DNA from: Sulfurovum sp.
GTDB taxonomy: Bacteria > Campylobacterota > Campylobacteria > Campylobacterales > Sulfurovaceae
Reading direction: 5' to 3'
Assembly: GCF_015493435.1 (NCBI RefSeq)
Contig: NZ_WGDD01000012.1
Coordinates: 1-34,012 of the forward strand
Length of the DNA: 34,012 bases
Below the pieces are notes generated by a model. That model did not search any database, was not told where the DNA came from, and saw only the letters and a program-made list of their open reading frames with translations. The position numbers and the translations under genes are program-made. Positions 1 to 19,416 of this stretch are shown piece after piece (within the stretch, counting starts at the first letter, position 1; every line of letters begins with the position of its first letter).

Positions 1-2007
1 CCGCTTAACGGCATTGTCGGATTTACGCAGCTTCTCAAGTCGACAGAACTGAACGATGAGCAGGCAGAGTTCATTACTGTGATAGAAACCAGTTCGGAGA
101 ACCTTTTAACGATCGTGAATGATATTCTTGACCTTTCAAAGATCAAGGCAGACAAGATAGAACTTGAAAATATCGCTTTTGATCCTGTAGAGAAATTTGA
201 ATCGGCCATAGAATCCTATGCCGCAAGAGCAGATGAAAAAGAGATAGAACTGAGTGTGTATTCCGATCCGGATCTGCCGTCAGAAGTAATGGGAGATCCT
301 ACAAAGATCTCTCAGATCCTCGTCAACCTTATCAGCAATGCCATCAAGTTCACTCCGACACACGGTATGATCAACGTACGTATTGAACAGCTTGCTTCCG
401 ACAATAGCGATGTTACCATGAAGTTCTCCGTAGAAGACAGCGGCATTGGGATTACGGAAGAGCAAAGAAGTAAAATTTTTGATGCATTTTCACAGGCCGA
501 TGTCAGTACCAGCCGAAAATTCGGCGGAACAGGTCTGGGTCTGGCTATTTCAGGCAAACTGGTCAAATTTATGGGAGGAGAGCTTGAAATAGAAAGTGAA
601 GAGGAAAAAGGCTCTACCTTCTTTTTTACCCTGACACTTCAAAAAGCAGAAGGTGCAGAAGCGCGCAAAAAGCCGAACATGAGCGGATTTGTGATCGGTA
701 CGGTTATTTCAGAAGAGATCGGCACACAGGCATATGACAGGAATCTGGAAGCGTATGCTCTGGCATGCGGTGCGAAGTTCAAGTCTTATGATAAAGATGG
801 CATTCTCAAACTGCCTGCATCCGAGCAGCCTGACATGCTGTTCGTCAATCATGTCTTCTTTCAAAGACAGGAAGAACTTGAACCGTATCTGGCACTGAAA
901 AGCCGTATGGTCCTGATGACGACACTGAAAATGTTCAATACGGTCAAAGCGCTTGAAGACCAGATAGGAAAAATCATTTACAAACCATTGAACCTAAGCA
1001 AGGCTTATAAAGCATTTGAAAGTATGTATGAAGATACTATCCCAGGTAAAAAATCCGTTTCAGAGGAAGAAAAAAGCAGTGCATCCTATTTTAAAAACCT
1101 TCATGTGCTTGTTGCGGAAGACAATGAGATCAATCAGAAACTGATCAAAAATGTATTGAATGGGCTGGGTATCAATGTGACCCTTGCCGACAATGGTGAA
1201 GAAGCCCTGAATCTCCGGATGCAGCATGAATACGATATGATTTTTATGGATATTCAAATGCCTGTTATGGGTGGGATCGAAGCAACGAGGGAGATACTGG
1301 CGTATGAAGAAAAATATCGAAAACACCATATTCCCATTGTGGCATTGACCGCCAATGCACTTTCCGGAGATAAAGAGCATTATATCGCGGAAGGGATGGA
1401 TGACTATCTTTCCAAACCGATCGAACTGGGGGCTTTGAGAAAGATCCTTGAATTATACCATTCCCATAAAATCGTATACCCTGAAGTCCAGCAGGCCATT
1501 TTGGAAGATACGGAAGAAAAAGAGAACAGGGAGAAAGTACCCGCATCTTTGAATAATATCGCAGCAGAAGAAGAAAAACCTGCGGAAAATACAAAGGAGC
1601 AGTTGAAAAATACAGTGCCCGAAACCAAGGCTGTGCATCATGAAGAAACGAAAGAGAGTGTAGCGGAAAAGAAACAAACGGATGTGCTCTTTTATCATGA
1701 AATTCCCATGATCGCCAGGCTGTATGAGCGTATGCTGAACAACCTGGGGTATAAAACAGATATTGCAAAAGACGCAGAAGAATTCATGGACAGGCTGGAA
1801 GATACGCAATACAAATTTGTCATATGCGAGATCGAACCGTTTGCCAAGATACGGGGACTGATAGCGGACCTTATCAAGAGCAGCGGTGCCAAACCGTTTG
1901 CACTGGTAGGCAAACTGGAAGATTTTGATGAGTACTACTGTGATGTACTGGCGGAAAACGGTACGATAGAAGAACTCGAGCGAAAACTAAAATCGTTCAG
2001 TCAATAA
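1..2007 (+). CDS. Hybrid sensor histidine kinase, 5'-truncated by window edge
   Basis: The frame is open from base 1, so the true start, sensor region and phospho-accepting His lie upstream; the first codons read PLNGIVGF, which directly follows the H-box HEIRT in this family. In order the sequence shows the rest of HisKA, a HATPase domain (NLISNAIKF at codons 109-117, DSGIG at 146-150, GGTGLGL at 175-181), a degenerate receiver (about 225-345), a canonical receiver (about 367-486) with phospho-acceptor D417 in FMDIQMPVMGG, a Glu/Lys-rich linker and a second degenerate receiver-like domain at the C terminus. It is a clear paralog of the complete kinase at 7903-11115, which predicts a membrane-anchored sensor upstream. 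The stop overlaps the convergent truA stop by 7 bp. The GTG at 79 is internal, not a real start. Input signal unknown. Confidence 0.93.
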   Translation, partial: PLNGIVGFTQLLKSTELNDEQAEFITVIETSSENLLTIVNDILDLSKIKADKIELENIAFDPVEKFESAIESYAARADEKEIELSVYSDPDLPSEVMGDPTKISQILVNLISNAIKFTPTHGMINVRIEQLASDNSDVTMKFSVEDSGIGITEEQRSKIFDAFSQADVSTSRKFGGTGLGLAISGKLVKFMGGELEIESEEEKGSTFFFTLTLQKAEGAEARKKPNMSGFVIGTVISEEIGTQAYDRNLEAYALACGAKFKSYDKDGILKLPASEQPDMLFVNHVFFQRQEELEPYLALKSRMVLMTTLKMFNTVKALEDQIGKIIYKPLNLSKAYKAFESMYEDTIPGKKSVSEEEKSSASYFKNLHVLVAEDNEINQKLIKNVLNGLGINVTLADNGEEALNLRMQHEYDMIFMDIQMPVMGGIEATREILAYEEKYRKHHIPIVALTANALSGDKEHYIAEGMDDYLSKPIELGALRKILELYHSHKIVYPEVQQAILEDTEEKENREKVPASLNNIAAEEEKPAENTKEQLKNTVPETKAVHHEETKESVAEKKQTDVLFYHEIPMIARLYERMLNNLGYKTDIAKDAEEFMDRLEDTQYKFVICEIEPFAKIRGLIADLIKSSGAKPFALVGKLEDFDEYYCDVLAENGTIEELERKLKSFSQ

Positions 2008-7887: not shown

Positions 7888-7906
7888 ATGATCCGCAGCG
7901 GATCAT
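7888..7906. terminator. Short GC hairpin at the 3' end of the signalling block
   Basis: ATGATCCG / CGGATCAT forms a perfect 8-bp stem with a CAG loop, and it includes the stop codon of the kinase gene (7903-7905). The T-run (TTTTT) follows the stem on the plus strand. On the minus strand, where the upstream gene is read, no U-run follows, so this may be a 3'-end stabilising stem rather than a strong intrinsic terminator. A 10-bp palindrome AACAGCTGTT lies beside it at 7878-7887. Confidence 0.4.
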
Positions 7907-10900
7907 TTTTGCAGTTTTTCACTTACTTCTGAAACATGGACACCTTCTCTGAGTACTTCGCAGCAAAAATCAACATGTTTGTTTGGTGAAAGAATTACGA
8001 ACGGCTTCGCCCCTGTATCTCTGATGGTATCGCTGATGAGGCATTTTATCGATTTGAAGGGTCTGCCGTCAAACAGAACGAACTGATATCGGGTATCTTC
8101 GATCCGGTTCATAAAATCATCTTCCGACGTGACTTTGTCAACACTGTAGCCGAGGTTTATCAGCATTTTTGCATAAATGTTCGCAATCATCGGAAATGAA
8201 TGATACAGCAAAATGTCCCGCGAGGGTTTCTTTTGTTCTGTTTGTGCAGGTGATGCCACCTGTGCCTCTTTTGCCTGCATCTGTGTTTCTTTTGCGTTAA
8301 CAGACACTTCTTTTGGAACAGGTGCCTCACTGTTTTGTGCCGTGGTTTCTTCAGGTATGGGCGCTGCTTCTTTTAACGTTTCCTCTTTGACTGAATTGTC
8401 ACTGGGGGATACCTCTGCAGGGCTTGTTGTCTCATCAGAATCGTGGGTGCTGACAGTCTCCTGCTCTTCTCCTGTCTTTTTCGGTGTGATACAGGTGGGG
8501 AAATACTCCTGAAGCAGGGTGTTGAGTTTATCCAGATCAAGCGGTTTGGAAAGGTAGTTGTCCATTCCGGCTTCTATGTATTTTTCTCTGTCCCCATGCA
8601 GGGCATTGGCTGTCAGTGCAACAATAGGTATATGCTTGATGCGGTTGAGCTTTTCAAAACGAATCATTTCTTTCGTAGCTTCAATACCTCCCATGACAGG
8701 CATTTGAATATCCATAAAAATCATATCATATTCATTTTGCTTACGGAGGTCAAACGCTTCCTCTCCGTTGTCTGCCACCGTGACCTGCAGACCAAAATCA
8801 TTTAAAATCCTTTTGATCAATTTCTGATTGATCAGGTTGTCTTCTGCGATCAATGCATGAATATTGTCAAAATGACAGTATGCGGCTGTATGTGCCTTTT
8901 CAACCTTTTGGTTCTCTTCTTTCTGTTGGCACAATTCAAGTACAGTGATGATTTTGGTAAAGTTGACAGGTTTATAGACAATTTTCCTCACTTTATCGCT
9001 GGGGACATTAAAGTCGCGCTGCAACTCTCCCGTCGTAAGCAATACAAGCTGGGTCGGAAGTTCGAGATAACGCTCAAGTTCACCCTTGTGTCTTGTATAT
9101 TCCTGTGAGAAAAATACCACATCCGGCAATGCAGACTGGTCTAAAGCAAAAATTTCATCACCGTAATACACTTTGAAACTTACCCCAAGGTAGTCAAAAT
9201 AGGCGATCAGGTTAATATCTATCTGTCTGTAAATATCCTGGGAAGGCAGAACAAGTGCAATACTCATGCCCTTGTATTTCTGTGCATAATTCTCCTCTTC
9301 CTCTTCGGATTTGTTGAAATGGAGGGTAAAGAAGAATGTGGAACCCTCTCCTTCTTCACTGTCCACATCCAGTTCTCCTCCCATAAAGGAAATGATCCGG
9401 CTGGAGATGGAAAGTCCGAGTCCTGTACCTCCGTATTTCCTGCTTGTCGAACTGTCTGCCTGGGAAAATGCCTCAAAGATCTTTGCTTTCTGCTCTTTGG
9501 AAATACCGATACCTGTATCGCTAATGGAAAAATGGAGGGTAACATCGTCTTCTGTTTCAGCAACCTGGGAAATATTGACATTGATCGCTCCGTGTACATT
9601 GGTAAATTTCGTTGCATTGCTGATAAGGTTGATGATGACTTGAGACACTTTTGTCGGATCGCCTATCAGCGTATGCGGAATGGTCGGATCGATATAGATA
9701 CCCAGTTCAATATCTTTTGAAAAGGCTTTTGCCGCATAGGACTCTACCGCTGTTTCAAATGTTTCAAATGTCTTAAACGGGATCGATTCAATTTCAAATT
9801 TGCCTGATCCCATTTTTGAATAATCAAGTATATCATTGATGATTCCGACCAGGTGATGTGAACTTGTATCAATAATATCAACGAATTCTTTTTGCTCTAT
9901 ATCCAGTGCTGTAGCTTTCAGCAGATCGGTAAAGCCTATGATGCCGTTCAGCGGAGTACGGATCTCATGTGACATATTGGCAAGAAAGGTTTCTTTGTTG
10001 GCTTCATTGGCTTCATTGATCGTTTGTGCCAAAAATTTATAGATCTTCCTGTTGTCTCTTGTAGCAATGATCTCTTTGAGTTCTTTGTTCTTCTTCGGTG
10101 TCAACCCTATTTCAATACTTTTAAGTGTGTCTTCGAGCATCTGTTTCTCTTTGTGCATCATTCTAAAAAGATATAAAAGGAAGAAAAAGAGGAATAGCAA
10201 GAAGAGACTGACATACAGGTACTGCATCATGTTTTTTTGTTTTTGGGCACTCTCAACACTCAGTAAATGGCTTATCTGCTTCAGGATAGCATTCTGAATG
10301 CTCTGGACAAAAGCAATTTTCTGCCCATATACAGTCTTGATCCGGGGGAGGGTAACGGTGTAAAGACCGTTAGCTGATTCTGCGTAGATCATTACCGTTT
10401 CATTTAACCCGAGATTCTCAAACTGTGTTACGGAAAGTCCGGTGTGAATATGGGAAATATCGTATTTTGGAAAGTTGTTTTCTATATGGAGCCTGTCCCA
10501 TGCCACAAGATCTTTTTTTCCCATGACTAACGATTTTTCTACGATAAATGAAAGATAGGATTTCTCAAGCGCCAAATGGTATTTCAATGTTTCGAGTGCA
10601 ATAAACTGTTTGAGTGCCTCATCGTTCCTGATCTTCACAGTTTTGCGGGAAACATCTTTGAGCATCATGATCATCTGCTGAAAAATATTGTCATCATATT
10701 CATCAAAAAAGATATTGTTGTAGTCTTTGCTCAGCGTATCGACTTTTGAATGGACAAAACCGAGATTTTTTGCAATATCCGAGAGATAAGTCAGATAATG
10801 GTTAAATTCGGCATGGGTACCGATCCAGCTTTTTAGATCATTTATGGCTGCTGAAACTTTTTGGCGGTCAGATTTCAGTAGTTTGGCATTTTGGCTGTTC

Positions 10901-11115
10901 TCTTTGCCCAGATAGACGGCACTTGCATAGACTTCATCGGTCAGCCGGTCTATGATCCTGTCTGTTTTGGTGAAAAATTCGACCTGCTGTGTATTGTTCT
11001 GTGAAATCCTATAGGCACGGTACAGTCCATAGGTATAGTATGCCGAGAAGAGAAAAGCGGAAAAGACAGTCAAAAATAAAAGAAAAAAGACTGATTTGCT
11101 GTTGAATATTTTCAT
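7903..11115 (-). CDS. Membrane hybrid histidine kinase with NIT-like periplasmic sensor and three receiver-type domains
   Basis: Residues 8-30 and about 296-318 are membrane spans that bracket a helical periplasmic domain (about 40-290). This domain resembles the NIT (nitrate/nitrite-sensing) family: DEVYASAVYLGKE in its first half and LKYHLALEKSYLSFIV in its second match the ER/KE helices of that family. The cytoplasmic part has HisKA with H383 (SHEIRTPLN), HATPase (NLISNATKF, SDTGIGI, GGTGLGL), a degenerate receiver (about 616-730), a canonical receiver (about 751-870, phospho-acceptor D802 in MDIQMPVMGG), a Glu/Thr/Pro-rich linker (about 872-960) and a C-terminal degenerate receiver. It is the last gene of the block, 18 bp after the third exported PilJ-like gene, with AGGAAC before the ATG. 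The domain order matches the kinase at 1-2007. Kinase call certain; NIT call moderate. Confidence 0.95.
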   Translation of the reverse strand: MKIFNSKSVFFLLFLTVFSAFLFSAYYTYGLYRAYRISQNNTQQVEFFTKTDRIIDRLTDEVYASAVYLGKENSQNAKLLKSDRQKVSAAINDLKSWIGTHAEFNHYLTYLSDIAKNLGFVHSKVDTLSKDYNNIFFDEYDDNIFQQMIMMLKDVSRKTVKIRNDEALKQFIALETLKYHLALEKSYLSFIVEKSLVMGKKDLVAWDRLHIENNFPKYDISHIHTGLSVTQFENLGLNETVMIYAESANGLYTVTLPRIKTVYGQKIAFVQSIQNAILKQISHLLSVESAQKQKNMMQYLYVSLFLLFLFFFLLYLFRMMHKEKQMLEDTLKSIEIGLTPKKNKELKEIIATRDNRKIYKFLAQTINEANEANKETFLANMSHEIRTPLNGIIGFTDLLKATALDIEQKEFVDIIDTSSHHLVGIINDILDYSKMGSGKFEIESIPFKTFETFETAVESYAAKAFSKDIELGIYIDPTIPHTLIGDPTKVSQVIINLISNATKFTNVHGAINVNISQVAETEDDVTLHFSISDTGIGISKEQKAKIFEAFSQADSSTSRKYGGTGLGLSISSRIISFMGGELDVDSEEGEGSTFFFTLHFNKSEEEEENYAQKYKGMSIALVLPSQDIYRQIDINLIAYFDYLGVSFKVYYGDEIFALDQSALPDVVFFSQEYTRHKGELERYLELPTQLVLLTTGELQRDFNVPSDKVRKIVYKPVNFTKIITVLELCQQKEENQKVEKAHTAAYCHFDNIHALIAEDNLINQKLIKRILNDFGLQVTVADNGEEAFDLRKQNEYDMIFMDIQMPVMGGIEATKEMIRFEKLNRIKHIPIVALTANALHGDREKYIEAGMDNYLSKPLDLDKLNTLLQEYFPTCITPKKTGEEQETVSTHDSDETTSPAEVSPSDNSVKEETLKEAAPIPEETTAQNSEAPVPKEVSVNAKETQMQAKEAQVASPAQTEQKKPSRDILLYHSFPMIANIYAKMLINLGYSVDKVTSEDDFMNRIEDTRYQFVLFDGRPFKSIKCLISDTIRDTGAKPFVILSPNKHVDFCCEVLREGVHVSEVSEKLQK

Positions 11116-11133: not shown

Positions 11134-11979
11134 TTAAAGGTTTTTGCTGTGATATGCTGATATTGCATCTGTTTTTCTTTCCAGATATACCACTGAATCC
11201 GACAGCAGGTTCGGAATAAAATACTGATCAATATTTTTCAGGACCTGGTCATCTCTGTGCCAGACTTTATCGATATGCTGCCGAATATCCTGAAGGTTCC
11301 CGGGGTAGGGGTAGGCATTGATCTCGGCTAAATACTGTTTCAGACCACTGATCGACTTTTGAAGGTTCATTCTGTTGTTCTGTGTGTCATAGCCCCGGTA
11401 AAGTGCCATATAGTATTTGGTAATACGTTCCAGCAAATACTTGATATTCTTGGTTGCAACCAGCATTTTCTCCTCTTTGGAAAAGGTATAGGCATAGGTT
11501 CTGCCGATGGAATCTGCACCTTCAAGCAGAGTTTCACTGTAATCCAGCATCAAGAGGGCATCTGCACTTGTCGGCTTCTGCTTGATGATAGACAGTATTT
11601 CTTCTTTGCTGTAAGCCAGAAATTCCAAAATATTCTGCGTATCTTCATCTTTTGTCACTGACGAGATAATTTTCAGGTTTTCTTCCAGTTTTTTCAAGGT
11701 TGCATAAAGATTTTTCTGCATTTTTGCATTGTTCGGATAGGTATAGTAAAATAGATATTCCTTGGCTATTTTTTGACTTAGATAACGTATGTTTTCTGTC
11801 GCTTCAATGATCTTTACGTCACCTCTTGTCATTTCTGTCTTTTTGATTTTTTTTGTTTTTTCTGCCTTTTTCTTTTGCACAGTATGCATCCTGGCAGCGT
11901 GTGTATGTTTTTTTACGCTTCCCGAAGCATACATACTGCTTGCGCCCAGGAACAGACAGCACCAAAAGAGCTTCTTCAT
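11134..11979 (-). CDS. Exported PilJ-like helical protein with eroded P-box motifs (third of three)
   Basis: Signal peptide at the N terminus (KKLFWCCLFLGASS), a Lys-rich linker, then two related helical repeats. The usual AGRQRMLSQR motif has decayed to TENIRYLSQKIAKEY in repeat one and TKNIKYLLERITKYY in repeat two; the AG pair is missing and the key Arg is altered in the second. No membrane span follows the signal peptide and there is no output domain, so the protein should be free in the periplasm. An ATG at 11994 overlaps the upstream stop, but AAAAGG is properly spaced for the ATG at 11979, which starts the signal peptide; I chose that. It may have lost ligand binding and become a partner or scaffold. 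Function unknown. Confidence 0.85.
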   Translation of the reverse strand: MKKLFWCCLFLGASSMYASGSVKKHTHAARMHTVQKKKAEKTKKIKKTEMTRGDVKIIEATENIRYLSQKIAKEYLFYYTYPNNAKMQKNLYATLKKLEENLKIISSVTKDEDTQNILEFLAYSKEEILSIIKQKPTSADALLMLDYSETLLEGADSIGRTYAYTFSKEEKMLVATKNIKYLLERITKYYMALYRGYDTQNNRMNLQKSISGLKQYLAEINAYPYPGNLQDIRQHIDKVWHRDDQVLKNIDQYFIPNLLSDSVVYLERKTDAISAYHSKNL

Positions 11980-11994
11980 GTCAAACCTTTTCAT

Positions 11995-12828
11995 TTATTT
12001 GGATAATGCAACATACAATTCAGTGATCTGATTCATTTTGTTGGTAATGTCATCGGTCGTATTAAATACGATCAGCGGCAATCCGCCTTTTTCAATATTG
12101 AGATAGAATTTATAGACGATCTTCCAGAGTCTGTTTATCTTGTTGAGTTTCCGGTTGATTTCCGGTGTATTGGAAGGATTGTTCATTAATGCTTTATGCG
12201 CATCGCTGAATTCTTTTACAGCCTCTTTCATCTGATCGACGGTATTTTTATCTCTTATTCCTGCCTGATAGGCAATGTAGTATTTGGCAATACGCTGTGC
12301 CAGCATTCTCTGTCTCCCCGCTTTTCCCACGAGAGCAGATTCTTTCAGGTTTGCTTTCTTCTTCAGCGAATTGACAACATACTGACTTCCCTCGAGCATA
12401 GATTCACTCAAGTCGATAATTAGCTGTGCATTGTCAAGGTTGAATGGTTCATTGGCTGTACTTTTGAAGTCTTCCATGCTCAGTTCGACAAATGCAAGCA
12501 GGTTCTTGATCTCCGGGTCATTGATGGAATTGACCAGTGTTTTATGTGTTGCTACCATGGATTTAAGGGAGGCAGCCAACTGTTTTTGTGCTTTGGATAC
12601 TGCGATCTTTTCGCCTGCATACAGATAATCTTTTGCAATTCTCTGGGAAAGCATTCTCTGTCTGCCTGCAATATCGATCAGCTGGAGAACATCATGTGTC
12701 TGTGTTGTTGTCTCCTTCACTGTGCTGCTTTTTGGGGATGTATTGTTGTCTGCACAGAGCGCAGTACCCATAAGTGCGGTTGCCGCTGCTGCTGCCAAAG
12801 TGATTTGTTTTATCCATTGTGTTTTCAT
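11995..12828 (-). CDS. Exported tandem PilJ/NarX-like sensor-domain protein (second of three)
   Basis: A signal peptide (about 1-26) precedes two copies of the PilJ N-terminal domain (type IV pili methyl-accepting chemotaxis transducer N-term family). The motif IAGRQRMLSQRIAKDY is at about 53-68 and KAGRQRMLAQRIAKYY at about 169-184; each is followed by a helical hairpin. The motif resembles the P-box of NarX/NarQ, which binds nitrate and nitrite at a helical dimer interface. In PilJ or NarX the domain is joined to a membrane and signalling module, but this 277-residue protein ends after the second repeat. AGAAGGAG precedes the ATG. Spacing to the upstream gene is 18 bp. I infer a soluble periplasmic binding protein; the ligand is unknown. 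Confidence 0.9.
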   Translation of the reverse strand: MKTQWIKQITLAAAAATALMGTALCADNNTSPKSSTVKETTTQTHDVLQLIDIAGRQRMLSQRIAKDYLYAGEKIAVSKAQKQLAASLKSMVATHKTLVNSINDPEIKNLLAFVELSMEDFKSTANEPFNLDNAQLIIDLSESMLEGSQYVVNSLKKKANLKESALVGKAGRQRMLAQRIAKYYIAYQAGIRDKNTVDQMKEAVKEFSDAHKALMNNPSNTPEINRKLNKINRLWKIVYKFYLNIEKGGLPLIVFNTTDDITNKMNQITELYVALSK

Positions 12829-12846
12829 CTTTCTTCTCCTTCTGGT

Positions 12847-13626
12847 TTATTTTTCCTGTGCGGCATACAGTCCGGTTGCCGTATTCATGTTCTTTAAAAT
12901 ATCGTTGGATTTTTTATAGATCAGTGCCGGAATGAATTTGGACTGTGAACGGTTCATGATTTCAAAGAACATGAAAGACCTTTGAGCTTTGTTCAACAGT
13001 GCTGTAATTTCCGGTGTGTTCATCTTTGACGCTTTCAAGCGTTCGAGTGATGTTTTGAAGAGTTTCATGGCCTGATCCATTTTTTCCTTGAACTTGGGAT
13101 CATTAATGCCCCATACTTTCAGCATGTACAAACTCGCCATTCTCTGGGAAAGCATACGCTGACGGCCTGAAATGTTAATGATCTCTCCTGATTCCTTGCC
13201 TGTCTGTTTGGCAAAAAGTCCGACTGCCTCATTGGACTGCTTCAGCAGGGCTTCAAGATCTTCCTGCATTTTGGCTGCCTTTTCTTTGCGCGGTGTTTCT
13301 TTCAGTGCGGCTTTTACTGGCGTCCACATCTTTTTTACTTTCATAAGACTTGCATCGGTTTTCGGATCTTTGTTGAACGCGATCAGCGCATCAAGATGGT
13401 CTTCAAAGTCTGTCATGGTCTTCTGAAGGTCTTTTTTGGGGTTTCCAAACGGGTTTTCCAAGCCTATCATGGCATAATCTTTGAGCATTCTCTGGGTAAA
13501 CATCCGCTGTTTCCCTGCCACATCCACGGCCTGTGACAGATTTTTGATCTCGGCTGCTTCTGCCGCACATAGTACAATCAGCAGTGTCAGTACGATTTTC
13601 ACTGCAACATATAACGGTTTTCTCAT
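12847..13626 (-). CDS. Exported tandem PilJ/NarX-like sensor-domain protein (first of three)
   Basis: The signal peptide MRKPLYVAVKIVLTLLIV ends near AAEA (about residue 24). Two PilJ-type repeats follow, with VAGKQRMFTQRMLKDY at about 36-51 and ISGRQRMLSQRMASLY at about 152-167. No second membrane span or output domain is present. A longer frame reaches 13665, but AAGGAG 7 nt before the ATG at 13626 and the signal peptide there decide the start, giving 259 residues. It sits 14 bp after the HPt-like gene. The repeats are diverged from those of the next two genes, so the three look like old tandem duplicates rather than recent copies. Confidence 0.9.
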   Translation of the reverse strand: MRKPLYVAVKIVLTLLIVLCAAEAAEIKNLSQAVDVAGKQRMFTQRMLKDYAMIGLENPFGNPKKDLQKTMTDFEDHLDALIAFNKDPKTDASLMKVKKMWTPVKAALKETPRKEKAAKMQEDLEALLKQSNEAVGLFAKQTGKESGEIINISGRQRMLSQRMASLYMLKVWGINDPKFKEKMDQAMKLFKTSLERLKASKMNTPEITALLNKAQRSFMFFEIMNRSQSKFIPALIYKKSNDILKNMNTATGLYAAQEK

Positions 13627-13640
13627 TTTTTGACTCCTTT

Positions 13641-13952
13641 TTATAATCGGGAACGTTCCAGCCATGCCAGCATCTTCTGTCTGTCAAGATGCTCTCTCAG
13701 TGCTTCGGTTTCCTCTGCTTTTTCTTTATTGCCCATCTGTGCGAGCAAACCTTTTAATGCATGCAAAATACTGTCTGCCTCGTCATGACTGTATGCTTCC
13801 GGCAGAGAAAGCATCTGCTCAAAATTTTTGAGTGTCGTTTCAAGGTTTCGTTTGCCCTTTGCCACGATCGGTACAATTTCATCTTCTTCAAAGCCGAATT
13901 CTTTTAAAAAAACATAGGCTTTTGCTTCTGTTTCATCAAGCAGTTTTTGCAT
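13641..13952 (-). CDS. Small HPt-like phosphotransfer protein
   Basis: A 103-residue all-helical soluble protein. The segment SILHALKGLLAQMGN at about 61-75 matches the HPt signature (AHxLKGxxxxxG), with H64 as the predicted phospho-acceptor, followed by the typical Leu/Glu-rich helix. The gene overlaps the end of the upstream hybrid kinase by 17 bp, so the two are translationally coupled. This suggests that it accepts phosphate from receiver D550 of that kinase or one of the other receivers in the operon. It is short and most of the sequence is poorly conserved, so the call rests on the motif and the context. Confidence 0.75.
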   Translation of the reverse strand: MQKLLDETEAKAYVFLKEFGFEEDEIVPIVAKGKRNLETTLKNFEQMLSLPEAYSHDEADSILHALKGLLAQMGNKEKAEETEALREHLDRQKMLAWLERSRL

Positions 13953-15801
13953 GTCCGATCCTTTTCAAGATTTCATACAAGGTTTCAGGGTTTAACGGTT
14001 TTTCAAGGATCCCGGCAAACCCGTACTCTTCCACTTTTTCGTAAGTGGACTTATAGACATCGGCGGTAAAAGCATAAACTGTCGGTAAGGAGCCATGAAG
14101 TGTTTTGAGCTTGTTCATGACTTCAAATCCGTTCATTCCCGGCATTTTCAGGTCGAGGAAGATCACATCATATGTTTTGATCTTGCACATACCGATCCCT
14201 TCATAGCCTCCGCCTGCCAGATCGACGCTGGCATCGGGATATTGTTTTTTGATGAAAAGCTGGAAAATATCCAAATTGGTTTCTGTATCATCGATGACAA
14301 GGACCGACAGCGCAAGCTCTTCTCCGCTCTCGCGGAGCAAAGCATGTTGATTGCGTAAGAGTTTTTTGTAGAGTGACAGCGGTGCGCAGTATTCATACAG
14401 CTCATCAAAATACTTTAACGAAAGATGCTGCTGCATATTTTCGGCAATGAATGCAGTATGGTTAAACTGCTTTGCACTTCTGAGATAATAAATCAGTGCG
14501 TCAAATTTGGCATAGGCTTCCGGTTGTGCCATGATGGAAATAATGTCAGGCATATCCTCTTTCTCATTTAAAAGATAATTGATCAGGGCACTCTCTTTTT
14601 TAAAATGTGTTATCTCGGCACCGCATGCTTTCAGAAAATGGATCTTTTCCTTCAAGTGTGCAGTGATTTCGGCTTCTTCCACATAAAAACAGATTTTTTT
14701 CCCTTCAAAATGTAGTTCTATGGGGCGATACTTTTCAAAACTGCAGGTAAAAGAGAAAGTTGTTCCCTGCTTAAAAGTGCTTTGGACATTCAGTGTGCCG
14801 CCCAGTTTCTCTGCGAGTTGTTTGGTGATGTGCATGCCCAGTCCAAGCCCCTCTTTCTCTTTTTGGTAACGGCTGTACGGAGAAAAAACATCTTCTACCT
14901 GCTCCGGTGTCATACCGCTACCGCTGTCTGAAACACTGAATGTTGCCTGTACCCCGTCTGTTTCTATGCTGTAATCCATAGAGAGTGTAATAAAACCTGT
15001 TTTGGTATATTTAAAAGCATTGCTGAGAAAGTTGATGAGAATTTCCATAATGTGCATTTTGTCGCCATAGACACTCAGGGGCATAAATTTGGACTGGAAC
15101 TGAAAATCGATATGGGGCCGGTTTTTTATTTCGATGGAGAGATGGTCAATACACTCCAAAAGCATTTCCTGTATCGTAAAAAATTCTTTTTTTATCTCCA
15201 ACTGGCCGCTGTTGAGTTTGGTTATATTTAAAATATCTTTGACAAGAGACTGAAGGCTTGCCGCACCGTTCAAGGCTTTTTTCAAATGAAACTTTTCTTC
15301 TCCCTGTATGGCTTTGCTCTCTTCAAGTATGGTTAGATAACCCGTAATGGCATTGAGTGATGTACGCATTTCATGTGAAAGATTGGCGATCATACGCTCC
15401 TGTGTTTTGAGTACGGTATTGAGCTGGCTGCTCACATTTTTTAAAATATGCTGTGCGGCAACCGACTGTGTTTCCATCTGTTTGGCATACATGCACCGGT
15501 CAATGAACAGAAAGTCAAAGAGTTTGCTGACGCCTTCCTGAAGCCTCTGTTTCTCTTCTTTGTTCTGTGCTGTATCATACAGGTAGGAGAAGCCCTGAAA
15601 AAGAAACTGCACCAACATGCGGGTATAACGAGGGTCATTTTCTGTAAAGATTTTATATTGCAGATCATAAATGATTTTTTCATCCTGACGGAAGATCATA
15701 GCTTCAAGCTCATTTACAGTTCTTTGCGCTTCTTCTTTTGAGCGCCCGAATTTTTGCATGATCCCTGCTTCTAAATACGCATGCTGTACGGCATTCATCA
15801 T
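13936..15801 (-). CDS. Soluble hybrid histidine kinase, partner of the FIST protein
   Basis: 621 residues with no membrane span. The N-terminal about 130 residues are helical and unrecognised, ending in a coiled coil. HisKA follows with H143 in LSHEMRTSLN (the usual Pro after T is Ser), HATPase with N257/N261 (NFLSNAFKY), DSGSG at 292-296 and GLGLGM, a degenerate receiver-like region (about 368-490), and a canonical receiver (about 498-617) with phospho-acceptor D550 in FLDLKMPGMNG. The ATG overlaps the FIST gene stop by 4 bp and GGGAGG lies inside the FIST gene. FIST proteins of the NosP type are often encoded directly beside such kinases (NahK) and control their autophosphorylation, which I infer here. 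Confidence 0.93.
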   Translation of the reverse strand: MMNAVQHAYLEAGIMQKFGRSKEEAQRTVNELEAMIFRQDEKIIYDLQYKIFTENDPRYTRMLVQFLFQGFSYLYDTAQNKEEKQRLQEGVSKLFDFLFIDRCMYAKQMETQSVAAQHILKNVSSQLNTVLKTQERMIANLSHEMRTSLNAITGYLTILEESKAIQGEEKFHLKKALNGAASLQSLVKDILNITKLNSGQLEIKKEFFTIQEMLLECIDHLSIEIKNRPHIDFQFQSKFMPLSVYGDKMHIMEILINFLSNAFKYTKTGFITLSMDYSIETDGVQATFSVSDSGSGMTPEQVEDVFSPYSRYQKEKEGLGLGMHITKQLAEKLGGTLNVQSTFKQGTTFSFTCSFEKYRPIELHFEGKKICFYVEEAEITAHLKEKIHFLKACGAEITHFKKESALINYLLNEKEDMPDIISIMAQPEAYAKFDALIYYLRSAKQFNHTAFIAENMQQHLSLKYFDELYEYCAPLSLYKKLLRNQHALLRESGEELALSVLVIDDTETNLDIFQLFIKKQYPDASVDLAGGGYEGIGMCKIKTYDVIFLDLKMPGMNGFEVMNKLKTLHGSLPTVYAFTADVYKSTYEKVEEYGFAGILEKPLNPETLYEILKRIGHAKTA

Positions 15802-16913
15802 GATGACACCTCCCTTTCGGTAATCAGTGCAATGGTCATTGTCTGGTTGTGGAGCACTGTGCCGCTGTGTTTTTTTGAAGTGGCGGGAGGACCTATTTCT
15901 CCAAAGGTATGACCGCCGACAAATGTAATGTCAAGATGTCTTTTAACGTCTTCAAGGTACAGGTATTCCATCATGGAAAGGTTTTTTTCTATACCTATGC
16001 AGTTGAACAGAAGTGCCGCACTCTTTGGCGGGGCAAAGGAATAAAGCCGACGGAGACGTTTCAACTGGTCCTGCTGACTGACCATAATACCTAATTTTAC
16101 ATATTTGTTGTTACACACATTTCTGTAAAGCAGTATGCTTTTGTCTTTTCTGTTTATACCGATCATCGAAGCCAGCGGCGCACTTTCCCAATGACCTTCT
16201 GCCTCTTTTTGCAGGAAAAGAGGGTAGGCAAACGTACCGATAGCCGATTCATCCAGTTCTCCGGCCAGGGCTTCGAGTACCTCCATTGCCGGCTGATTGT
16301 TGAGTTCATAAATTTTGTTTCCTTTGGCGCTGGTTATTTTGAGGGGAAGTCCTGCCGGACGGAAAAGATGCATGCTCATACCGTCTATCCTGTATCTGCT
16401 CTCATCGATCATCCATAACAGTACATGCCGATCATAGAATACACCGTTATAAAACACTTCTGCCTCCTCCTCCATGGCCGGGGCGTCCACACCTGCGACA
16501 GCACCGAAGATTCGCTGTGTACCTACGACAGAAGGGAGAGGTGAGAGCATATCTTCCAATTCGAAAGAAGTAAAGGCGCTGAAAAGAATAAGCTGATATT
16601 TTTTCTCTTTATCCAGTGTTGGAGTGATTTTGTCATCTTTATGGAATACCTCTACAGTAAAAGCCTCTTTGTCCATTTTCAGACAGAGATAGACACAGGG
16701 GAACTGATGGCGGGATTCTATGTAGGGGAGTTCATTGGCAATGTTGCCGGCACTGCTGCATCCGATAATATCTGCCTGTGGGAAACGCTTTTTCAGTATC
16801 TGGTATTCGGCAGAAAAAAGTGTCTTTTCGCTTTTTCTGTAAAATCCGATGATCACTGTTGGAATAAAATCAATGGTATCCAATGATACACTTGTCACTG
16901 CTATTTGCTTCAT
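15798..16913 (-). CDS. FIST-domain sensor protein (NosP-like)
   Basis: 371 residues, cytoplasmic, no signal peptide. FIST_N features are VIIGFYRKSEK and FPQADIIGCSSAGNIAN; FIST_C features are GLPLKITSAKGNKIYELNNQPA and, near the end, FVGGHTFGEIGPP..HNQTMTIALI. FIST domains bind small ligands, and the NosP subgroup binds haem and senses nitric oxide, silencing an adjacent kinase. The next gene is a hybrid kinase with a 4-bp overlap, the same pairing as nosP-nahK. Whether this member binds haem cannot be judged from sequence alone; a metabolite ligand is the alternative. It begins 28 bp after the receiver gene. Confidence 0.9.
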   Translation of the reverse strand: MKQIAVTSVSLDTIDFIPTVIIGFYRKSEKTLFSAEYQILKKRFPQADIIGCSSAGNIANELPYIESRHQFPCVYLCLKMDKEAFTVEVFHKDDKITPTLDKEKKYQLILFSAFTSFELEDMLSPLPSVVGTQRIFGAVAGVDAPAMEEEAEVFYNGVFYDRHVLLWMIDESRYRIDGMSMHLFRPAGLPLKITSAKGNKIYELNNQPAMEVLEALAGELDESAIGTFAYPLFLQKEAEGHWESAPLASMIGINRKDKSILLYRNVCNNKYVKLGIMVSQQDQLKRLRRLYSFAPPKSAALLFNCIGIEKNLSMMEYLYLEDVKRHLDITFVGGHTFGEIGPPATSKKHSGTVLHNQTMTIALITEREVSS

Positions 16914-16941: not shown

Positions 16942-17322
16942 TCAACCCTCTAAATTCAAAAGTTGTTTGAAATTTTTTTTATAATCCATGGGCATGATCG
17001 GTTTTCGCAGGAACAGATCGAAAAGTGCATGGGAATTTTCATACTCTTCAGGATAAAGCGTCAGTGCGGCAATTTTGGTTGTTTTGTTTTTTTTCAGCGC
17101 TTCTTTCGCGATAGCACTGCCCGAACCGTCAGGAAGGTTCATGTCTATTACCATTGCATCATAAACGGCATTTTGGGAAATTTTTGTTAATGCCTCTGCC
17201 ACATTGAGTGCTACATCCACATGGATAGAAACATTGCCTTCTTTGGTTAAAGATTTGATTACTTTTTCCTCGAATTCCAAATTGTATTCGAAATCATCGA
17301 CAATTAAAACCCTTCTTACCAT
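16942..17322 (-). CDS. Stand-alone response regulator receiver
   Basis: 126 residues made of one receiver domain: acidic pair D9-D10 (LIVDD), phospho-acceptor D60 (MVIDMNLPDGSG), a Thr in AALTL and the Lys in FLRKP. No output domain, so it probably relays phosphate or acts by protein contact, like CheY or the middle receivers of phosphorelays. An in-frame ATG at 17355 exists, but AAGGAG lies 6 nt before the ATG at 17322, which begins the receiver proper. It is separated from the upstream EAL gene by 61 bp with a hairpin and a TATAAT box, so it may begin its own transcript with the FIST, kinase and HPt genes. Confidence 0.92.
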   Translation of the reverse strand: MVRRVLIVDDFEYNLEFEEKVIKSLTKEGNVSIHVDVALNVAEALTKISQNAVYDAMVIDMNLPDGSGSAIAKEALKKNKTTKIAALTLYPEEYENSHALFDLFLRKPIMPMDYKKNFKQLLNLEG

Positions 17323-17343
17323 TTTTATCTCCTTGATTGGGTT

Positions 17344-17349
17344 ATTATA
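17344..17349 (-). promoter_or_regulatory. Possible internal promoter before the receiver-FIST-kinase genes
   Basis: Minus-strand TTTTATAATAACC contains TATAAT 22 bp before the receiver start. No convincing -35 at normal distance. Together with the hairpin just upstream it suggests a second transcription unit inside the block. Confidence 0.45.
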
Positions 17350-17368
17350 AAACAATCACAGTCAAAAG

Positions 17369-17390
17369 GCTATAAGACTTTTCTTATAGC
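17369..17390 (-). terminator. Hairpin over the stop codon of the EAL gene
   Basis: GCTATAAGA and TCTTATAGC form a perfect 9-bp stem with a 4-nt loop; the TAA of the EAL gene (17384-17386) is inside the stem. On the minus strand CTTTTG follows, a short U-run. This could be a weak terminator or an RNA-processing or stability element that sets apart the regulator/EAL genes from the genes downstream. Confidence 0.5.
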
Positions 17391-18721
17391 GTGTTTCCGT
17401 TTCCTGCTGAAAGTTTTTGTATCTTTTCAACCAGCGCTTCAAGCTGTACCGGTTTTGCATAAAGATACCCCTGTATCGTCAGGGGAGCAAACTGCTGCAG
17501 TACGGTTGCTTCTTCCTGTTTTTCTATGCCTTCTGCTATGACTTTCATATTCAGGGCTTCAGCCATTGAGACAATAGCTTTCAGCAGGTCATGTTTCTTT
17601 TTATCGGTATCGATACCCTGTATAAAGGATTTGTCAATCTTCAGTATATCGATCGGAAGGTCGGCAAGCTGTCTAATAGAAGTGTATCCTGTCCCAAAAT
17701 CATCTACTTCTATGCATATGCCCAAATTTTTTATTTTGTGCAGAATATCCAAAAGATAATCGGTATGTTCCAGCAGCATTTCTTCTGTAATTTCGAAATG
17801 CAGGTTTCTTTCATTCAATTCATATTCCTGAAGCAGAAACTGAAGTGTTTTGTAGAAATGTGCTGTAAGCAGAAAAACCGGTGAAATATTGACAGAAAGG
17901 GAAAAGTCATCAATGTGTGCATGGTCCAAAACAATAAATGCTTTTGAAGCGGCAACAAGTGTTTTGATACTCAGTGAAGCGATCATGCCATTCTGTTCGG
18001 CCAGCGGTATAAAAATTTCCGGAGAGATCTCTCCGTAAGCAGGATGTTTCCATCTTGCTAACATTTCAGCCCCGGTAAAACGCTGATGTACCTGTGAATA
18101 CTGTGCCTGGTAAAGAAAATAGATTTCACCGTTCTCTATGGCGGCAGGAAGCGCCTGTTTTAATTCCATCTGTCTTTCTGTCAGCAGTATGGAGCTGTCC
18201 TGGACGGTACTGATCAGGTTCTTTCCGTTCTTCTGGACTTTTTTCATTTTATTTTCGGCTACTTTGATAAGTGCATAGAGGTCTGTGCCTTCATCTGGAT
18301 AAAAACTGATACCAATGGAGGTATAAATGTAAAACATATCTCCGTTGATCATGCACGGTTCAGAAAAAAGATGCATGATCTGTCTTGCCAGTTCGGATGA
18401 AACACGTTCCGGTATATCTGCCTGTACTACAATATACTGATAATCTCCGACTCTGACAAGCATATCGTTTTCTGTCAAAGCAGAACTGAGTTTCTTCCCT
18501 ATTTTACTGATCAGGAGCTGATCCCGTTCCAGTAGATTTTCGTTATAGCCATAAAACTGATTGAAGCCGTAAAATTCTATGAAAAGTATTGAAAAACGGA
18601 TATGCTCAGGGTCGGTTTGAAAAAAATTTCTTTGAAGAAGTTCCATCAACGCAGCGTAGTCAAGCGCAGACGAACAGGAATCATGGTGAAGGACATGGAG
18701 TATCTCGACAGGTTTTTTCAT
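17384..18721 (-). CDS. Degenerate GGDEF / intact EAL protein, predicted c-di-GMP phosphodiesterase
   Basis: 445 residues, soluble. The GGDEF domain (about 40-170) has GDYQY at residues 92-96 in place of GGDEF, so cyclase activity is not expected; it may bind GTP or be structural. The EAL domain (about 180-440) keeps the metal and catalytic residues: E219 (EML in place of EAL), N278 (SVNIS), E310 (FEITEE), D340-D341 (VDDFGTGYTS), K361 (ILKID), E397/E400 (AEGIE) and Q417. It should therefore hydrolyse c-di-GMP, linking the block to biofilm or motility control. No receiver domain is attached, so coupling to the phosphorelay must be indirect. It lies 41 bp after the NarL-like gene, with a poor ribosome-binding site (AAGG about 15 nt upstream). 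Confidence 0.93.
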   Translation of the reverse strand: MKKPVEILHVLHHDSCSSALDYAALMELLQRNFFQTDPEHIRFSILFIEFYGFNQFYGYNENLLERDQLLISKIGKKLSSALTENDMLVRVGDYQYIVVQADIPERVSSELARQIMHLFSEPCMINGDMFYIYTSIGISFYPDEGTDLYALIKVAENKMKKVQKNGKNLISTVQDSSILLTERQMELKQALPAAIENGEIYFLYQAQYSQVHQRFTGAEMLARWKHPAYGEISPEIFIPLAEQNGMIASLSIKTLVAASKAFIVLDHAHIDDFSLSVNISPVFLLTAHFYKTLQFLLQEYELNERNLHFEITEEMLLEHTDYLLDILHKIKNLGICIEVDDFGTGYTSIRQLADLPIDILKIDKSFIQGIDTDKKKHDLLKAIVSMAEALNMKVIAEGIEKQEEATVLQQFAPLTIQGYLYAKPVQLEALVEKIQKLSAGNGNTL

Positions 18722-18762: not shown

Positions 18763-19416
18763 CTAAGGATTCTTTGTCTGCTGTAATGAAAAATGGATCA
18801 GCTGTGCAGTCGAGGACAAACTGAGTTTTTGAAGTATGTGTGTATGATGGGCAGAAACAGTTTTGGCAGAAATATTCAGAGTTGAAGCGATCTCTTTAAA
18901 ACTGATACCCGAAACGATCATGCTGTATATTTCAAATTCTCTCGGCGAAAGTGTTGAAAGAGAAGGTTTTTCTTTTTTTAAAAGTTCCATACCGTAGGAT
19001 AACGTTTCTCTGTATTTGGAGGAAATATAGATACGATTGTCCATGACAGCTTCAATCGCCGGTATCAATTCGTGCTGTACATGTGTTTTCATCACATAGC
19101 CGGATGCCCCTTCATGGATACACTGCATTGCGTACGGATCTTCCGGGTACATACTCAAAACCAGTATTTTCATCAGGGGAAACTGTTCTGAAAGGTACCG
19201 TATGTCATGCATAGTGTGATGATTGCCCAGATTCAGATCAAGAATTAAAAGCTGGTATTTCTTTTGATTCAGGCATTGCATAAGTGCATCATGGTTCAAT
19301 GCCTGGTCAATAACATCAAATGCGGGCTGTTCCTGCAATAAAAACTTTACACCTGTACACACAATATCATGATCATCGGCTATGAGGACCGAACACCTGT
19401 CCTGGCACTTTTCCAT
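18763..19416 (-). CDS. NarL/FixJ-family response regulator
   Basis: Receiver domain (1-about 120): D14-D15 (LIADDHD), phospho-acceptor D60 (LLILDLNLG), Ser in VLSMYPEDP and Lys in VMKTHV. A LuxR-type helix-turn-helix follows (about 150-210: LSPREFEIYSMIVSGISFKEIA, NISAKTVSAHHTHILQKL). DNA-binding transcription factor, 217 residues, the normal size. It is the first gene of the signalling block, preceded by a GGGGGCGGGG stretch as ribosome-binding site and a TATAAT box. NarL-type regulators commonly pair with NarX-type sensors; the PilJ-like and NIT-like proteins downstream make this pairing attractive, but the cognate kinase is not proven. Confidence 0.95.
   Translation of the reverse strand: MEKCQDRCSVLIADDHDIVCTGVKFLLQEQPAFDVIDQALNHDALMQCLNQKKYQLLILDLNLGNHHTMHDIRYLSEQFPLMKILVLSMYPEDPYAMQCIHEGASGYVMKTHVQHELIPAIEAVMDNRIYISSKYRETLSYGMELLKKEKPSLSTLSPREFEIYSMIVSGISFKEIASTLNISAKTVSAHHTHILQKLSLSSTAQLIHFSLQQTKNP

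Follow-up and report, generated by a model that had tools for sequence, protein, structure and literature searches.

What do three adjacent genes for exported PilJ-type proteins do directly in front of a hybrid histidine kinase? We addressed this question for a locus of Sulfurovum sp. in a window of 34,012 nucleotides, the whole stretch of DNA that was analysed. A sequence-only reading had placed three adjacent genes, here called A, B and C, before a kinase with a NIT-like periplasmic domain, had described each product as a signal peptide plus two PilJ domains, and had proposed that all three act as soluble partners of that kinase. The three genes lie as described, on the minus strand (Table 1). 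However, their products do not look equivalent: A and B resemble ligand receptors, while C looks like a kinase-specific adaptor.

The gene row and a second cassette

The trio is part of a tight minus-strand row that comprises, in order, genes for a LuxR-type regulator, a GGDEF-EAL protein, a single receiver, a FIST protein, a hybrid kinase, an Hpt-like protein, A, B, C and a further hybrid kinase. As the intergenic distances range from small overlaps to 41 bp (18, 0 and 18 bp after A, B and C, respectively), the whole row is likely a single operon. Promoter and terminator scans over the row gave nothing better than shuffled sequence. The GGDEF signature of the GGDEF-EAL protein is degenerate, and this protein is a probable c-di-GMP phosphodiesterase. 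The FIST protein reaches 35.5 bits with the NosP equivalog NF041558, which has a cut-off of 450, and the Hpt-like protein matches Pfam Hpt with an E of 0.0039, under the cut-off. The FIST unit adjoins the module in part of the genomes only, lying upstream in L044 and L050 and divergently, whole or in part, in L084, L086, L087, L089, L090 and L096.

Table 1. Features of the window, with strand and the evidence on which each assignment is based.
Feature	Coordinates	Strand	Evidence
LuxR-type response regulator, first gene of the row	18763..19416	-	Pfam Response_reg and GerE
GGDEF-EAL protein	17384..18721	-	Pfam EAL (E 3.5e-61) and GGDEF (E 3.4e-14)
Single-domain response regulator	16942..17355	-	Pfam Response_reg
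FIST-domain protein, same family as NosP	15798..16913	-	Profile match
Cytoplasmic hybrid histidine kinase of the upstream FIST unit	13936..15801	-	Pfam HisKA, HATPase, receiver
Hpt-like phosphotransfer protein, upstream in the same row	13641..13952	-	HxxKG motif, read directly; weak Pfam Hpt
Protein A: signal peptide and two PilJ domains; proposed soluble anion (nitrate) receptor	12847..13626	-	Pfam PilJ, N-box core
Protein B: signal peptide and two PilJ domains; proposed main nitrate receptor	11995..12828	-	Pfam PilJ, AF2 model, NasR match
Protein B, first-half N-box IDIAGRQRMLSQ, residues 51-62	12643..12678	-	Full match to the pattern published in PMC6381276
Protein B, second-half N-box-like VGKAGRQRMLAQ	12295..12330	-	GxxR kept, two deviations from the pattern
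Protein C: exported, degenerate tandem PilJ protein that lacks the N-box; putative adaptor to the NIT ectodomain	11134..11994	-	
Hybrid histidine kinase, 1070 residues: TM, NIT ectodomain, TM, HisKA, HATPase, receiver, C-terminal region	7903..11115	-	
Periplasmic NIT ectodomain of this kinase, residues 32-298	10222..11022	-	AF2 model, NasR match
C-terminal part of the second NIT kinase (probable)	1..2007	+	151-bp contig overlap and similarity to kinase core

The same genome carries a second copy of the module, with the order A-A-B-C-kinase, on contig C23 (L012), which stops inside the kinase. The last 151 bases of this contig (L012:12330-12480) are identical to positions 1-151 of the window. 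Based on this exact overlap, positions 1-2007 of the plus strand probably encode the remainder of the second NIT kinase, which makes it likely that the two modules adjoin each other in the genome.

Export, PilJ domains and the putative ligand

At their N-termini, A, B and C each have an n-region with positive charge, followed by a hydrophobic stretch and an AXA-like site. With a simple sequence rule, such a signal is detected in 69 of 77 A, 60 of 65 B and 59 of 60 C orthologs, in agreement with the export that had been claimed, and a lipobox is almost absent among these orthologs. All three look like plain Sec-exported soluble proteins. For A, a Shine-Dalgarno-like aaggag precedes the ATG at 13626, and a second in-frame ATG is found at 13665.

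The claim of two PilJ domains per protein holds for A and B only. Pfam PilJ (PF13675, cut-off 26.6 bits) matches A in two stretches (E 2.3e-21, 76.4 bits) and B likewise (E 2e-19, 70.2 bits), whereas C is degenerate, with one stretch below the cut-off (E 4.8e-4, 20.6 bits). C nevertheless aligns over its length with A, with B and with its own paralog in the second cassette, and it is on this alignment that we place it among the PilJ relatives. A Pfam search of A, B and C returned no further credible domain.

The N-box of nitrate-binding PilJ domains reads [IVL]-[ND]-x-A-G-x-Q-R-M-L-[ST]-Q (PMC6381276). Protein A has one core per half (AGKQRM and SGRQRM), each half differing from the full pattern by one residue, and 67 of 77 A orthologs have the core in both. 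Among the B orthologs, 61/65 have at least one strict match and 59/65 have the core in both halves. The core was found in none of the 60 C orthologs, and both halves of the window C fail the pattern.

Relatives of B were present in 69 of the 150 genomes of the family. Among the 90 genomes with a completeness of at least 90%, the periplasmic nitrate reductase NapA was found in 38 of the 42 with relatives of B, leaving four module-bearing genomes without it, versus 26 of the 48 without such relatives (Fisher p 1.5e-4; p 0.012 in the window's own genus alone; p 0.0025 when stratified by genus), a correlation for part of which a general respiratory lifestyle could account. The retained N-box, together with this co-occurrence, supports a nitrate-like ligand for A and B.

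Membership in these families does not in itself fix the ligand, as one NIT domain and one double-PilJ domain of P. aeruginosa gave no nitrate binding (PMC6381276). In an alternative reading, A, B, C and the NIT protein would form a receptor complex whose ligand is a different oxyanion (nitrite, sulfite or a chlorine oxyanion, for instance) or a small organic anion. The existence of such PilJ-type and NIT domains without nitrate binding is in line with this alternative, as is the fact that NarX and NarQ also bind nitrite and sulfite, McpN being restricted to nitrate (PMC6381276). The relatedness of the organisms to sulfur oxidisers and the slight departures from the N-box pattern in the second half of B and in both halves of A point the same way. 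Nevertheless, the strict N-box in nearly all B proteins and the co-occurrence of the module with NapA argue against it, and we regard a ligand other than nitrate as unlikely.

The NIT ectodomain, protein C and the distribution of the module

In the kinase encoded after C, HisKA spans residues 374-438, HATPase residues 485-600 and the receiver residues 755-868. Structure prediction, which had been suggested as a check and was run singly for the ectodomain and for B, gave NIT-like models in both cases. The ectodomain model (pLDDT 93.3) has NasR as its best match (Z 23.2, rmsd 3.0, 253 residues; next entry 14.7), and the ectodomain is thus predicted to be a NasR-type double four-helix bundle. The window kinase has no Pfam NIT (PF08376) match up to an E of 1, and a search of solved structures by sequence with the ectodomain gave no real match. 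The paralogous kinase, which is 34% identical, passes Pfam NIT (E 6.2e-15, 56.7 bits against a cut-off of 24.9). The earlier assignment of a NIT-like periplasmic domain is therefore upheld by the fold and by the paralog.

The model of B (mean pLDDT 90.6) also has NasR as its best match in the PDB, over its whole length (Z 19.8 over 246 residues; next 13.1). The McpN structure matches one half of the model, and roughly half of B is covered by the alignment with the PilJ structure of P. aeruginosa. B is predicted to be all-helical, a NIT-like double four-helix bundle in which the two bundles lie next to each other as in NIT, an arrangement that would bring both N-boxes together within one chain. 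As NasR matches both models, the ectodomain and B are predicted to have one common architecture. The likeness between NIT ectodomains and tandem PilJ proteins is one of fold only, since a profile comparison detected no sequence homology between them (probability 0.2%).

In the window kinase, the arginines of the ER motifs on helix 1 and helix 5 are replaced, by V62 and K185; the equivalence of these positions to the nitrate-pocket residues of NasR is by motif. Both arginines are retained in 23 of 27 NIT kinases without the trio versus 10 of 57 with it, a difference that independent contrasts cannot link to the trio, because the trio-bearing NIT domains form nearly one clade. On the tree, the two arginines changed 11 and 8 times, mostly within the trio clade, and the trio was gained or lost only twice, which leaves two contrast pairs only.

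In 34 complete modules, the pairwise divergence of C correlates with that of the ectodomain (r 0.90; partial 0.63 when A, B and the kinase core are controlled for) more closely than the divergence of the ectodomain does with that of its own kinase core, although these two belong to one chain (r 0.80; partial 0.19). Rate differences and shared inheritance could contribute to these correlations. In five genomes with both cassette types, C tracks the type, with 66/60% identity within a type across genomes versus 46% across types, and so does the ectodomain (45/41% versus 24%). B is not sorted by type (82/80% versus 79%; 76-89% within a genome). Gene conversion was considered as the cause of the conservation of B and rejected, the third-position identity of the two B genes being at background (0.52). 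The A genes of the two cassettes exhibit a tract with third-position identity of up to 0.90. On these identities, we read A as partly homogenised between the cassettes and B as simply constrained. The simplest reading of the cassettes is that B, and probably A, are common receptors and that C is a kinase-specific link.

The common architecture of B and the ectodomain also suggests another role, in which the soluble proteins would compete in homotypic NIT-NIT pairing and deliver no ligand, C being, for example, a decoy half-receptor. This would suit a protein such as C, which has no ligand site yet is strongly retained and co-diverges with the ectodomain. As it leaves the retention of the N-box in A and B unexplained, we consider it improbable.

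Of the 68 B genes from Sulfurovaceae and near relatives, 58 have C as the next gene and the NIT protein after it, and the median gaps within the module are 9-11 bp. This synteny set comprises 62 named loci, the window and L012, and was collected via B, so that it cannot gauge the frequency of lone NIT proteins. Ten B genes depart from this order, owing to contig ends, duplications, a broken copy or one divergent C or, at the two loci L051 and L099, because A and B occur with neither C nor the NIT protein. A search with the ectodomain revealed many NIT kinases in other families. Among 29 chosen loci with a clear ectodomain match, A, B and C were absent within several kb upstream in 27; the other two, L123 and L133, carry the trio and come from a different family of the order, which extends the module beyond a single family.

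Several other gene arrangements were encountered. Two Sulfurovum-type NIT kinases (L132:921-3575, minus strand, and L134:6635-9271) are nested in the trio clade and have no adjoining A-B-C; their soluble partners were likely lost. The widespread NIT kinases without A-B-C (L115-L131, L135-L143) often lie beside a gene of about 600 residues and one of 400-640 residues, which form a separate conserved neighbourhood. Exported proteins of about 555 residues with four PilJ units, and with N-box-like motifs in all or most of them, are found in other Campylobacterota with no adjoining kinase (L168:3627-5288, L169:3333-5015, L170:510-2195 and L171:2658-4343, both on the minus strand, and L172:3587-5317), and a recurring exported protein of about 210 residues (PYVDVDVNGK..RIQDT.HKL) flanks four of these five. 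Single A-like exported proteins of about 260 residues are scattered (L158, L159, L160, L161, L163, L164, L165), with no N-box and no adjoining NIT kinase, and those of L159 and L163 begin with a twin-arginine-like signal. A Cupriavidus megaplasmid carries two adjacent soluble PilJ-type genes (L157:8097-9693), so free PilJ proteins exist beyond Campylobacterota; a search of the plasmid collection gave only two matches, both distant and from Cupriavidus.

The NIT proteins of one clade, 14 sequences in all, lack both a receiver and a phospho-acceptor domain. The members that were read out have only a degenerate HATPase-like region on the cytoplasmic side, or almost nothing; the L100 protein ends about 20 residues past the second membrane helix, and an unrelated gene comes next. 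The clade consists of metagenome assemblies, of which single cases may hold errors, but it is consistent overall, and A, B and C are still present in order. The trio stays where the kinase part is lost, and no other observation indicates as clearly that A, B and C go with the NIT ectodomain, as opposed to the kinase in general. A role of A and B as a periplasmic anion buffer or delivery system, for example feeding Nap, that is merely co-regulated and leaves C alone or nothing to contact the kinase, would fit the unsorted B and the multi-PilJ proteins exported elsewhere without an adjoining kinase, but is quite improbable given that A and B are locked to C and the NIT protein at about 10 bp spacing in dozens of genomes, even where the kinase part has been lost.

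Proposed mechanism and relation to known systems

The proposal of soluble partners for the NIT kinase is well supported, on comparative grounds, by the strict synteny, the retention without a kinase and the co-divergence of C with the ectodomain, and has to be amended in that the three proteins are not equivalent. The reading that we favour, with a probability of roughly 0.55, is that A and B are soluble nitrate receptors and C an adaptor, which form one sensory unit with the NIT kinase. Counting against it are the NIT kinases of other families that do without the trio, the four module-bearing genomes without NapA, the A-B-only loci L051 and L099, and the one-residue departures of the A N-boxes. 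From the observed gene order, folds, motifs, conservation, co-divergence and NapA co-occurrence, we infer the following ligand, docking, role of C, signal direction and phosphate path. After export, A and B would each have two PilJ four-helix bundles in the same paired arrangement as the NIT domain of NasR, and the two N-boxes of one chain would form a single anion site, the likely ligand being nitrate. C, which probably has the same ancestry as A and B and has lost the site, would be a cassette-specific adaptor that brings ligand-loaded A or B to the NIT ectodomain, itself apparently largely without the nitrate arginines. Docking via C would alter kinase activity, and phosphate would pass to the Hpt protein, which the neighbouring FIST kinase may also use, and from there to the LuxR-type regulator, the single receiver and the c-di-GMP phosphodiesterase arm.

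At least two soluble motif-bearing proteins plus one altered relative nearly always precede a membrane sensor of the same fold; nitrate sensing has therefore probably passed from the membrane sensor to a soluble multi-part receptor in Sulfurovum-type bacteria. A more far-reaching version, which we put forward tentatively and with more doubt than confidence, is that sensing has moved onto a diffusible multi-protein assembly of NIT fold, with A and B interchangeable between paralogous kinases and C kinase-specific, and that in one lineage this assembly functions with no active kinase, as a new kind of receptor complex.

Searches of the open-access literature revealed no account of a NIT kinase with soluble PilJ partners. 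The module resembles TorT-TorS and LuxP-LuxQ in that a separate exported protein would bind the ligand and signal via the ectodomain of the adjacently encoded hybrid kinase. TorT and LuxP are single proteins with a periplasmic-binding-protein fold, whereas the module comprises at least three all-helical proteins that share the general architecture of the kinase ectodomain, with the ligand site missing from one of the three, and B is predicted to be NIT-like. NasR (NIT-ANTAR), the top structural match of both B and the ectodomain, is in contrast one cytoplasmic protein with its own output domain, and the ectodomains here mostly lack the ER arginines. McpN, NarX and NarQ exhibit an N-box or P-box motif and a four-helix bundle, with the nitrate site between two bundle copies (PMC6381276). 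A and B are similar in motif and bundle, but those proteins are covalent membrane receptors that dimerise, whereas A and B have two bundles in one soluble chain with no anchor or output domain. QseG, an envelope accessory protein encoded with the kinase QseE, binds and activates this kinase (PMC12691602); it is an outer-membrane lipoprotein, in contrast to A, B and C, which resemble Sec-exported soluble proteins. NosP/FIST units likewise have a FIST protein adjoining a hybrid kinase and c-di-GMP enzymes, as in the row described here, but the FIST protein of this row is far under the NosP cut-off, and its unit accompanies the module in part of the genomes only.

To our knowledge, known nitrate sensors are single chains (NarX, NarQ, McpN, NasR) or cytoplasmic helpers. 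A set of soluble nitrate receptors in the periplasm, served by an adaptor of its own, would, if true, be a new sensor design, and it would help to account for NIT domains without nitrate binding. The module would also provide a compact four-protein system for testing the split between ligand capture and signalling. Nitrate serves as a main electron acceptor in the Campylobacterota in which the module is found, relatives of sulfur oxidisers, and the linked FIST and c-di-GMP genes suggest that nitrogen oxides may be tied to surface life.
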